Shown here piece after piece: positions 2,933 through 36,645 of a DNA stretch of 36,655 nucleotides (positions within the stretch are counted from its first letter, which is position 1; every line of letters starts with the position of its first letter). The notes under the pieces are model-generated. The model saw only the letters and a list, made by a program, of their open reading frames with translations. It ran no database searches and was not told where the DNA came from. The DNA comes from Gammaproteobacteria bacterium (lineage in GTDB: Bacteria; Pseudomonadota; Gammaproteobacteria; JAADHQ01), in contig DRJK01000103.1 of NCBI GenBank assembly GCA_011052215.1, forward strand, positions 1 through 36,655. The letters run 5' to 3'. The position numbers and the translations under genes are program-made.

Positions 2933-3164
2933 TACTGCTGCCCCGTTAACTTTATGAAGCACATATCAATGTGAGGACATGGAATCGGCAAGCCTGATCA
3001 AGACCGTCTGCCGCACGGATGCGGCAGCCGAGCCGCCATGGATGGCATGTTTTGCGTGTCTTGATCAGGCTTGCCGGTTTCATGTCCGGATTGCGGGTTA
3101 GTCCAAAACGCACTTGCCGCTTACATTTCAACTACATTCGTCACGGGTTAACGTGACAACAGTG
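2933..3164 (+). mobile_element. MITE-like repeat, copy 2 (full length, 232 bp)
   Basis: The left end reads TACTGCTGCCCCGTTAAC and the right end GTTAACGTGACAACAGTG, an imperfect terminal inverted pair. The internal hairpin arms lie near 2978-3009 and 3055-3085 and enclose a GC-rich core with its own small stem, CTGCCGC/GCGGCAG. The 9-base flanks (acgcacttt on the left, aaatatgtt on the right) do not match, so no target duplication is visible. The copy supplies the first codons of a long alternative frame of the transferase gene on its left. The rest of the gap up to 3180 holds nothing else. Confidence 0.9.
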
Positions 3165-5879: not shown

Positions 5880-6111
5880 CACTGTTGTTCCGTTAACTTT
5901 ATGAAGCACATAACAATGTGAGGACATGAAATCGGTAAGCCATATCAAGACCGTCTGCCGAACGGATACGGCAGCCGGGCCGCCATGGATGGCATGTTTT
6001 GCGTGTCTTGATTTGGTTTGCCGGTTTCATGTCCGGGTTGCGGGTTGGCCCAAAATGCACTTGCCGTTTACGTTTCAACTATATTCGTCATGGGTTAACG
6101 GGACAACAGTG
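5880..6111 (+). mobile_element. MITE-like repeat, copy 3 (full length, 232 bp)
   Basis: It begins CACTGTTGTTCCGTTAAC and ends GTTAACGGGACAACAGTG. It has the same internal hairpin organisation as copy 2, with the core in the common orientation; the arms (near 5925-5954 and 6003-6031) carry several mismatches. The flanking nonamers (atgacgggg, tatcggtaa) do not match, so the target duplication is lost or the copy was rearranged. It separates msrA from the convergent PilZ gene. A frame of 64 codons running through it is judged non-coding. Confidence 0.9.
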
Positions 6112-8963: not shown

Positions 8964-9021
8964 CACTGTTGTCCCGTTAACTTTTCAACTACATTCGTCA
9001 TGGGTTAACGGCACAGCAATA
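8964..9021 (+). mobile_element. MITE-like repeat, copy 4 (58-bp deleted derivative)
   Basis: Only the two ends remain. The left terminus CACTGTTGTCCCGTTAAC plus two bases is joined directly to the last 38 or so bases of the right end (TTCAACTACATTCGTCATGG then GTTAACGGCACAGCAATA). About 175 bp, including the whole hairpin module, is missing. Flanking nonamers TTGGCTTAT (8955-8963) and TTGGTTTAT (9022-9030) agree at 8 of 9 positions, so the deletion either preceded transposition or occurred inside an inserted copy without touching the ends. Confidence 0.88.
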
Positions 9022-21617: not shown

Positions 21618-21650
21618 GAGAAATTAAACTCTGTTTTATTGTTATATTAT

Positions 21651-21883
21651 CACTGCTGTCCCGTTAACTTTAATGAAGCGCATAACAATGCGAGGGCATG
21701 GAATCGGCAAGCCTGATCAAGACCGTCTGTCGCATGGATGCGGCAGCCGAGCCGCCATGGATGGCCTGTTTTGCGTGTCTTGATTTGGCTTGCCGATTCC
21801 GTGTCCGGATTGCGGGTTAGCCCAAAACGCACTTGCCGCTTACATTTCAATTATATTCGTTACATGTTAACGGGACAGTCGTG
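21651..21883 (+). mobile_element. MITE-like repeat, copy 5 (233 bp, perfect 9-bp duplication)
   Basis: It starts CACTGCTGTCCCGTTAAC; the right end, TGTTAACGGGACAGTCGTG, carries a small change. The identical nonamer TTATATTAT flanks both sides (21642-21650 and 21884-21892), a clean target-site duplication. The internal hairpin (arms near 21697-21724 and 21776-21803) is in the common orientation, with changes in the right arm only (TTGATTTGGC instead of TTGATCAGGC). It lies in the 500-base gap between the FHA and FKBP genes. Confidence 0.92.
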
Positions 21884-21984
21884 TTATATTATAGTTCGTA
21901 ATCCACATGCAGGATATCACATTTCCTTTAGCATAAACCGGAATTCAACAGTTGACTACTTTGAAATAGCCCTAAGTTATTGAT

Positions 21985-23531: not shown

Positions 23532-23763
23532 TACTGCAGTCCCGTTAACTTTATGAAGCACATATCAAAGTGAGGACATGGAACCGGCAAGCCGGATAAA
23601 GACCGTCTGCCGCACGGATGCGGCAGCCGAGCCGCCATGGATGGCATCTTTTGCGTATCTTGATACGGTCTGCCGGTTTCATATCCGTATTGCGGGTTAG
23701 CTAAAAACGTATTTGCCGTTTACGTTTAATCCGGATTCATTACAGGTTAACGGCACAGCACTG
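23532..23763 (+). mobile_element. MITE-like repeat, copy 6 (232 bp)
   Basis: It starts TACTGCAGTCCCGTTAAC and ends GTTAACGGCACAGCACTG. The flanking nonamers ACATATTAT (23523-23531) and ACATACTAT (23764-23772) agree at 8 of 9. The hairpin arms (near 23578-23605 and 23656-23684) have diverged more than in other copies. The right end overlaps the 5' part of the long open frame of the MOSC gene, whose real start is downstream of the element. Confidence 0.9.
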
Positions 23764-26326: not shown

Positions 26327-26558
26327 CATTGCTGTCCCGTTAACTTTATGAAGCACATAACAATGTGAGGACATGAAACCGGCAAGCCTGATCAAGACAC
26401 GCAAAACATGCCGTCCATGGCGGCTCGGCTGCCGCGTCCGTGCGGCAGACGGTCTTGATCAGGCTTACCGATTCCATGTCCGGATTGCGGGTTGGCCCGA
26501 AACACACTTGCCGCTTACATTTCAGCCACATTCGTCATGGGTTAACGGCACAACAGTG
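26327..26558 (+). mobile_element. MITE-like repeat, copy 7 (232 bp, inverted hairpin module)
   Basis: The ends are CATTGCTGTCCCGTTAAC and GTTAACGGCACAACAGTG, in plus orientation by their adjoining sequences (TTTATGAAGCACATAACAAT on the left, CTTGCCGCTTACATTTCAGC on the right). The inner module reads GACACGCAAAACATGCC...GGCAGACGGTC, the reverse complement of the module in copies 2, 3, 5, 6 and 9. The arms are swapped too (ATGAAACCGG now on the left). The nonamers ATTATAAAT and ATTATAAAC agree at 8 of 9. Confidence 0.92.
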
Positions 26559-29041: not shown

Positions 29042-29148
29042 CCGGCCGCCCCCGCATTTCTACCACGCGGCAGACGGTCTTGATCAGGCTTACCGGTTCC
29101 ATGTCCTCACATTGTTATGTGCCCCATAACGTTAACGGGGCAACAGTG
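29042..29148 (-). mobile_element. MITE-like repeat, copy 8 (one half only)
   Basis: The right-hand part reads GCGGCAGACGGTCTTGATC, then CAGGCTTACCGG...CCATGTCC and CACATTGTTATGTG, ending GTTAACGGGGCAACAGTG. Read in reverse this is the left half of the family, so the copy is in minus orientation. Homology is clear from about 29066; the stretch from 29042 is weaker. The other half and any left target repeat are missing, consistent with deletion. The remaining bases to 29268 show nothing recognisable. Confidence 0.82.
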
Positions 29149-30039: not shown

Positions 30040-30276
30040 TACGGCTGTCCCGGTAACCTCATGAAGTGTATATAAATGTGAGGATATGAAACCGGTATGG
30101 CCAAATAAAGACCGTCTGCCGCACGGACGCGGCAGCCGAGCCGCCATGGAGGGCATGTTTTGCGCGTCCTGATTTGGCCATACCGGTTTCATATCCGGAT
30201 TGTTCTGTTTAGCTTAAAACGTACTTGCCGTTTTCGTATCGACTTGGATTTGTTAAAGGGAAGCGGCACAGCAATA
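30040..30276 (+). mobile_element. MITE-like repeat, copy 9 (237 bp, divergent, perfect duplication)
   Basis: The ends, TACGGCTGTCCCGGTAAC and GCGGCACAGCAATA, have drifted from the consensus, yet the nonamer ATGATGTAT is identical on both sides (30031-30039 and 30277-30285). The hairpin arms read CCGGTATGGCCAAATAAAGA (left) and TTTGGCCATACCGG (right). The bases differ from other copies in both arms but still pair, so the stem is maintained by paired changes. Confidence 0.88.
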
Positions 30277-35863: not shown

Positions 35864-36645
35864 TAGGGTCAGACTCGACATAATTGAGCAGGGATGATAG
35901 CCTGCTGTTTCACCGGAATAGATCGGAATAACAGGACATGGCAAGACTTCCCCGTATATATGTAAAAAACCAGCCGCAACACATTATCCAGCGGGGCAAT
36001 AACCGGGAACCGATTTTTGTAGATAAACAAGACTATTTGTTCTACTTGAAATGCCTTCAGGAAGCAGTAAAAAATCATGAGCTTCATGTACATGCCTATG
36101 TGTTAATGACTAACCATGTCCATCTACTGGCTTCTCCCCAGCAAGAGAGCAGCACAGGCAAGGTGATGCAATCAATTGGACGGCGGTATGTGCAATATTT
36201 TAACTACAGATACGATCGCACGGGAACGCTGTGGGAAGGTCGATACAAGTCTACACTCATTGATAGTGAGCAGTACTTACTGATCTGCATGCGCTATATT
36301 GAATTAAATCCAGTAAGAGCCAATATGGTGTCGCACCCAAAAGAGTATCGCTGGTCCAGTCATCGCATAAATGCATTGAGTGAGCCTGGTGAATGGATAA
36401 AACCACATATCGTCTATCGACGGCTTGGCAATGATATCGCGGAGAGAGAAAAGGCCTATCGCGCACTATTCCGGAATCATCTGCCTTTACGAGCTATCGA
36501 GGATATTCGAGAGGCAACAAACAAGGCCTGGGTATTGGGGCCGGATCGTTTTAAGAAAAAAATGGAAAGGCTGGCGGGCAGACGTTCAGCACCCTTGCCA
36601 AAGGGGAGGCCCAGGCAGGCATGAATTATATCGAGTCTGACCCTA
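35864..36645 (+). mobile_element. RAYT element bounded by 22-base inverted repeats
   Basis: TAGGGTCAGACTCGACATAA (start of 35864-35885) is the reverse complement, with one mismatch, of the 22 bases at 36624-36645. The right copy starts at the last base of the transposase stop codon. The bracketed 782-base unit contains only the transposase gene. Such TAGGGTCAGACTCGA-like ends are seen around RAYT genes in many gammaproteobacteria. No short REP-like dispersed copies of this end were seen elsewhere in the window. Confidence 0.82.
35938..36624 (+). CDS. REP-associated tyrosine transposase (RAYT, Y1_Tnp family)
   Basis: This 228-residue HUH-type single-strand transposase relates to IS200/IS605 TnpA. 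LPRIYVKNQPQHIIQRGNNR begins the Y1_Tnp domain; the metal-binding HUH motif is MTNHVHLLASP near residues 57-67. Further on are YVQYFNYRYDRTGTLWEGRY, with candidate nucleophilic tyrosines, and YIELNPVRANMVSHPKEYRW. The C-terminal basic tail (KKKMERLAGRRSAPLPKGRP) is typical of RAYTs and probably binds the flanking hairpin DNA. RAYTs usually act on nearby REP sequences rather than moving themselves. It appears intact and complete. Confidence 0.93.
   Translation: MARLPRIYVKNQPQHIIQRGNNREPIFVDKQDYLFYLKCLQEAVKNHELHVHAYVLMTNHVHLLASPQQESSTGKVMQSIGRRYVQYFNYRYDRTGTLWEGRYKSTLIDSEQYLLICMRYIELNPVRANMVSHPKEYRWSSHRINALSEPGEWIKPHIVYRRLGNDIAEREKAYRALFRNHLPLRAIEDIREATNKAWVLGPDRFKKKMERLAGRRSAPLPKGRPRQA

Follow-up and report, generated by a model that had tools for sequence, protein, structure and literature searches.

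Why should a 36.7-kb stretch of DNA (the window, by which we mean the whole of the stretch analyzed) hold nine related copies of one short hairpin-bearing sequence, which enzyme put them there, and what is the hairpin that they carry? The window lies at the beginning of contig C103 of a gammaproteobacterial draft genome (2.61 Mb, 183 contigs), and an earlier note on it had described nine MITE-like copies, the positions of which are reproduced here with two small corrections. We conclude with high confidence that they belong to an IS4-type MITE family whose interior is a TwoAYGGAY hairpin.

Copies of the element in the window

The nine copies comprise six that are near full length, one with an internal deletion and two that are truncated. 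The full-length copy at 21651–21883 (233 bp, + strand) is bounded by a left TIR, CACTGCTGTCCCGTTAAC (21651–21668, +), and a right TIR, CACGACTGTCCCGTTAAC (21866–21883, −; locus L161), and on each side of it stands the same 9-bp target duplication, TTATATTAT (21642–21650 and 21884–21892), identical at 9/9 positions. The diverged full-length copy of 237 bp at 30040–30276 (+) also has a perfect duplication (ATGATGTAT, 9/9), and the flanks match at 8/9 positions for three others, namely the full-length 232-bp copies at 23532–23763 (+; ACATATTAT/ACATACTAT) and 26327–26558 (hairpin and core on the − strand) and the internally deleted copy of 58 bp at 8964–9021, which retains both TIRs (TTGGCTTAT/TTGGTTTAT). 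These are the five copies for which matching flanks had been claimed, and the claim holds for each. The remaining two full-length copies, both of 232 bp and on the + strand, had by implication no matching flanks, and their flanks agree at 4/9 positions for 2933–3164, with no clear target duplication, and at 1/9 for 5880–6111, with none. The copy at 1–153 (−; right TIR at 136–153) is cut by the contig edge, since the window begins where the contig does. The second truncated copy (−; right TIR at 29131–29148) had been placed at 29042–29148 and is indeed present, but the start was wrong; it begins near 29067 and has lost its left half.

Genome-wide distribution and target duplications

A search of the whole assembly with the core pattern (at most three mismatches) returns 165 matches in 2.61 Mb and none in the reversed control, a copy number that is an estimate with error possible in both directions, several dozen contigs starting or stopping inside a copy. 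The TIR pattern yields 143 matches in the whole assembly vs three in its control. The density in the window, nine copies in 36.7 kb, is above the genome average of about one per 16 kb. From the window and some 80 further regions around copies we took 65 elements in which the two ends and their flanks are present; in these the identity between the left and right 9-bp flanks is 0.71, compared to 0.36 for mismatched partners, and the flanks match perfectly in 20 elements where 0.14 would be expected. At lengths of 3–8 and 10–13 bp the flank identity is at the control level, so that the signal is confined to a length of nine: the copies were transposed by an enzyme that makes 9-bp cuts. The ends are shifted by 3 bp in some copies (for example the CACTGTCCCG or CATTGCTAATG variants), and allowing for this would raise the count of matching flanks. 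The modal length is 232 bp (30 of the 65) with a second class of 235 bp (n = 10), and no MITE copy lies inside an ORF among the 30 tested. Short and non-coding, with paired TIRs, a constant length and a target duplication, the 65 elements display the properties by which a MITE is recognized. The mobile-element reading had been staked on consistent termini and on 9-bp flanks that match more often than by chance across the genome; the termini are consistent and the flanks are far above chance, which upholds it. That this is a high-copy MITE of the IS4 type is, with the evidence on its ends given below, almost certain.

An interval without the element is found in a genome of the same genus (G001, locus L242), in which genes for a DnaJ-like and a MOSC protein are adjacent and separated by a short spacer, at the place where the window has the copy at 23532–23763 between the same two genes; the comparison is at the level of gene neighbors, as divergence of the non-coding flanks precludes the alignment of an empty site base by base.

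The family also varies in structure. An element of 393 bp (L081, G000:C77:2943-3335, G000 being the genome under study) has perfect 18-bp TIRs and extra DNA after the hairpin (containing GGATCCGCTGATTAATTCTGG), with flanks matching at just 4/9 positions, and one of 439 bp (L284, G002:C45:16135-16573) has exact CACTGCTGTCCCGTTAAC ends and a second, nested hairpin of 27 bp (beginning AACCGCCAAGACGCCAAGGACGCCA). One MITE is seen with and without its hairpin both in the genome under study (L049 and L116) and in Dive96_bin3.252 (L155 and L159); L049 is 150 bp long, has its hairpin deleted and is flanked by a perfect 9-bp duplication.

IS4-type ends and the probable mobilizing transposase

The earlier note had proposed that an insertion sequence with MITE-type ends and 9-bp duplications would identify the helper, and such elements, all of the IS4 family and with the MITE's ends (CACTGYTGTCCCGTTAAC), are found in other Gammaproteobacteria. 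Its own candidates, ISAs1, IS5 and IS1, give way to this family, to which the autonomous elements with identical ends belong, and were set aside on that basis. The element L253 (1273 bp) has CACTGCTGTCCCGTTAAC exactly at both ends and an IS4 transposase gene with a broken frame, and ends near-identical to those of the MITE bound L178 (1271 bp, with a perfect 9-bp target duplication), L291 (1281 bp, duplication 8/9) and L259 (1275 bp), the last of which encodes a transposase of 389 aa with DUF4372 and DDE_Tnp_1 domains that scores 276 bits to NF033592 IS4 (cut-off 115). The YREK signature Y-2-R-3-E-6-K can be read directly in the translations of L259 and of the IS4-like element L061 described below. 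The same transposase family occurs elsewhere, in other Gammaproteobacteria and on plasmids, between ends that begin CACTAGTGTCCGG or CACTGCTGTCCC and with 9-bp duplications that are often perfect. Another locus, L187, was rejected as an IS4 element with an exact TIR, as the TIR lies beside the alignment and not around it. Across the class, matches to the MITE/IS4-type ends are present in 40 of 369 genomes, with 117 in the genome under study and 44–57 in four others, and among those inspected many are MITEs whose flanks match at 8/9 or 9/9 positions. They include matches in vent Gammaproteobacteria and in Nitrosomonas marina, where one element (L153) is 143 bp long with a perfect 9-bp duplication.

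No intact helper with the MITE's exact ends was found in the assembly of the genome under study. This has one DDE_Tnp_1 transposase gene, of the IS4 family (191 bits to NF033592), and its IS4-like copy on contig C71 has CACTAGCGTCCGGTTAAC-like ends that are related to, but different from, those of the MITE and lie about 1.17 kb apart. We rejected this copy as the direct helper, as its ends differ at several positions and its size of about 1.17 kb compares with 1.27–1.33 kb in its relatives. The element (L061, C71:1-1300) abuts a truncated MITE copy in what is a nested insertion, and the flank on its right is no longer MITE sequence, which means that the site has been rearranged; more likely it is a later arrival than the MITE, inside a copy of which it sits. 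The MITE family seems to be stranded in its own genome, because the only IS4-like copy there has a different end and looks short. We propose that an IS4-family transposase with DUF4372 and DDE domains would have recognized the CACTGYTGTCCCGTTAAC ends in trans and made 9-bp staggered cuts, that such a transposase probably moved the copies by trans-mobilization, and that it would since have gone missing from this genome, leaving the copies to decay.

Two further observations concern other elements with IS4-type ends. A GAGACATGAA-like motif recurs inside L283, L280, L276, L275, L278 and L148 and also in the 5′ part (near position 150) of the IS4 transposase genes of L253, L259 and L178, and is possibly a relic of the parent gene. 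In L275, L276, L278, L281, L282, L290, L274, L148 and L261, MITEs with IS4-type ends enclose a different hairpin (GTCATTCCGG..CCGGAATGACG), which we take to resemble the widespread dRS3-like repeats; elements with such ends appear to carry hairpin cargo of two or more kinds.

The hairpin in the interior of the MITE

The earlier reading recognized a hairpin element but not the known RNA family that it carries. The interior of the MITE matches Rfam RF01731, TwoAYGGAY, which we regard as its very likely identity. In the window the hairpin at 2968–3094 (+) scores 43.8 bits, against a gathering threshold of 43, and the other copies score 30–37 bits (one copy above gathering and three below), including those at 21687–21813 in the 21651 copy (32.4 bits) and at 30075–30203 (+) in the 30040 copy (36.6 bits), both below the threshold, so that the RF01731 score is borderline in the window. 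In genome G187, MITEs with ends of this kind reach 49.9 and 55.0 bits, and L288, a TIR element of another family, scores 49.9 bits and is thus at or above gathering. Matches to miRNA families reported by cmscan were dismissed as chance matches of long hairpins. The passages on TwoAYGGAY RNA in Weinberg et al. (2010; PMC2864571) describe two adjacent hairpins with AYGGAY loops and an orphan family of Gammaproteobacteria, and Rfam places RF01731 in the CsrB clan (CL00106) and lists it as cis-regulatory.

In the MITE a long outer stem ends in two small hairpins, each of which has an ANGGA loop. Among 103 copies in the genome under study both AYGGAY motifs are retained in 74 and both GGA in 90, where the count for loop B is biased upward by its position inside the search pattern. 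Loop A, which is outside that pattern, has its A in 103/103 copies and GGA in 98–100, and the second base varies (C in 79, G in 14 and T in 10). In a set of 22 hairpins that spans several lineages of MITEs with IS4 ends, pairing is seen in 95.9% of the cells vs 86.7% after shuffling, and changes on both sides are seen in 30 of 44 pairs vs 10.7; a second set of hairpins has 450 double-change cells vs 139, and in neither set was the observed covariation score reached by any of 500 shuffles. Within IS4-end lineages the adjacent 20-bp arms pair at 18–20 of 20 positions, and across lineages the 5′ arms are identical to the consensus of the window at just 5–13 of 20, that is, the stem has been rewritten with its pairing kept. 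Stem variants changed on both arms also occur within single genomes. The structure of the hairpin is conserved.

The same hairpin between unrelated ends

A covariance model (R1) was built from the 22 IS4-end hairpins with a short calibration, so that its E-values are rough. It recovers some RF01731 loci outside the training set (for example L217, with 71.9 bits, and L216, with 49.6 bits) and finds hairpins in elements without IS4-type ends at rough E-values of 1e-9 to 1e-24, and it has no match in the csrB or IS control loci. The matches are concentrated in G038 (at least 50 copies), G054 (18) and G047 (8), with few or none in most of the 56 genomes. In G054 the hairpin lies in elements of 170–189 bp with ends beginning GTAACTACTCA and the TIR GTAACTACTCAGCG, which have 8-bp duplications (perfect in 5/8, identity 0.91 vs 0.29). 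In G038 it lies in elements of about 203 bp with the TIR AATACGTGTTCCGAAT, flanked by CTA..TAG, that is, a TA duplication inside CTAG, the context being present at 12/16 left and 13/16 right ends; these copies are not found by RF01731. Their ends and duplications suggest that the G054 and G038 elements may be of the IS66 and IS630 types, respectively. MITEs whose ends are unrelated have the unpaired parts of the hairpin in common (ACCGT, CGAGC, GCGTGT and both ANGGA loops).

One structured hairpin is accordingly present in three sorts of MITE that differ in their ends and target signatures, which means that the "RNA family" is at least partly a recurrent MITE cargo, and suggests that mobile DNA carries TwoAYGGAY as cargo, at least in part. 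Not every copy of the hairpin has a recognizable MITE around it, since no TIR is evident at its loci in G047 and no TIR with target duplication was found at the TwoAYGGAY loci of G160, G270, G363, G242, G148, G028 and G088. We infer that the hairpin is a portable module, maintained by selection that acts on the lineage of the element.

Possible roles of the hairpin

What maintains the module can be approached through the mutations that copies have acquired. In 47 end-ascertained copies the frequency of private mutations does not differ between the core and the rest (19/1833 vs 108/9058, p = 0.63). Substitutions pooled without distinction are rarer at the ANGGA sites (7/376 vs 1042/10515), a comparison in which inherited variants are counted repeatedly, and shared variation is lower in the core, where the contrast in distinct variants is not significant (p = 0.19). 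The orientation of copies to the neighboring genes shows no bias (6/6/8/9). With private mutations even and orientation unbiased, nothing shows selection for an RNA function of individual copies, and we favor constraint on the transposing lineages followed by neutral decay after insertion.

The same observations suit an explanation to which we give somewhat less than an even chance, in which the IS4-type MITE carries the hairpin as a structural passenger, DNA template switching or hairpin repair maintains the complementarity of the long arms, and neither CsrA nor an RNA role matters. Stems that are rewritten between lineages and still paired, and two-armed variants within one genome, are what such processes would leave, as are the even spread of private mutations and the lack of orientation bias. 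Template switching, however, does not explain why the unpaired ACCGT, CGAGC, GCGTGT and ANGGA segments recur across MITEs with unrelated ends, nor why the N of ANGGA varies while its A and GGA do not.

The loops could be accounted for by CsrA. CsrA binding had already been predicted for the two ANGGA loops of TwoAYGGAY (PMC4333381), and the genome under study encodes a canonical CsrA (contig C134). Read-through RNA from a MITE copy would display paired sites of the CsrA/RsmA type and might thereby titrate CsrA or alter the fate of a host transcript; alternatively the role may be at the level of DNA, for example hairpin extrusion that aids transposition. A CsrA decoy is the leading, if weakly supported, idea for the role of the hairpin, and on its sequence motifs we consider it possible, and on balance improbable, that CsrA is the reason for the hairpin. 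Rather less probable, in our estimation, is the wider proposal that TwoAYGGAY is a portable hairpin helping miniature transposons of unrelated families to spread via a shared host factor, which would be either CsrA, recruited by the paired GGA loops, or a factor that binds DNA hairpins. If so, it is the presence of the hairpin and not the type of transposase that unites these MITEs.

Independent origin of the hairpin in each type of MITE by convergence, with neither capture nor common descent, is in keeping with stem sequences that differ between the types, but we consider it distinctly unlikely given that the unpaired linkers and their order are common to them and that R1, trained on IS4-end elements alone, finds the other types with no csrB or IS control match. 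Least credible by far is a REP/REPIN-type repeat spread by the window's REP-associated tyrosine (Y1) transposase relative (228 aa, 35938–36624, +; PF01797 51.7 bits; NF047646 77.7 bits, just below the cut-off of 80), for while the window has that gene and the repeat is intergenic and palindromic, TIRs of a defined 18 bp together with target duplications of 9 bp speak for a DDE transposase, the ends are common to the MITE and IS4 elements, and REP/REPIN sequences, which rely on a tyrosine transposase, have no TIR-bounded duplication.

Relation to known elements

The IS4-type MITE with a TwoAYGGAY interior ties to mobile DNA an orphan RNA family that is cis-regulatory in Rfam and a predicted CsrA binder. 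It makes two questions directly testable, whether CsrA sites are scattered through genomes by MITEs and why one hairpin is reused, and it is a caution that covariation in such families can come from mobile hairpins and not from host regulatory RNAs alone. No paper linking TwoAYGGAY or CsrA to MITEs was found in the open-access literature.

High-copy MITEs are known from other bacteria. In the sections consulted of the accounts from Coxiella (PMC5896051), where they occur with small RNAs, and Thiomargarita (PMC4853749), they resemble the family described here in copy number, and some are linked to RNA elements, but their ends and target duplications differ where these are given, the hupL MITE of Thiomargarita having a 10-bp repeat, unlike the 9 bp found here, and TwoAYGGAY was not found in those sections.

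Among insertion sequences the closest description is that of the IS4Sa subgroup, in which the TIR starts with CA and has T at position 9 and the duplication is 8–10 bp (De Palmenaer et al., 2008; PMC2266710). The ends, size and 9-bp duplication appear to fit this subgroup, judged by pattern match to the published description: the ends of the MITE in the window start with CA and have T at position 9, its duplication is 9 bp long, and the autonomous elements that share its ends have a YREK-type DDE transposase and a length of 1.27–1.28 kb. The element in the window differs in being without a transposase, and the word "MITE" is absent from that paper.

With the sRNAs of the CsrB/RsmB type (RF00018) the hairpin shares an Rfam clan and the GGA-loop hairpins, which in CsrB/RsmB sequester CsrA; in contrast, the MITE has two loops per element, is dispersed and is without an evident dedicated promoter, and its CsrA sites are predicted from the motif and the clan. 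Passages in the literature that cover the name TwoAYGGAY make no mention of a transposon. The family as described in PMC2864571 is alike in having a long outer stem that bears a pair of adjacent hairpins with AYGGAY/ANGGA loops and in its gammaproteobacterial distribution, the model scores running from borderline to clear, and the difference is that here it forms the interior of a MITE present at about 165 copies.
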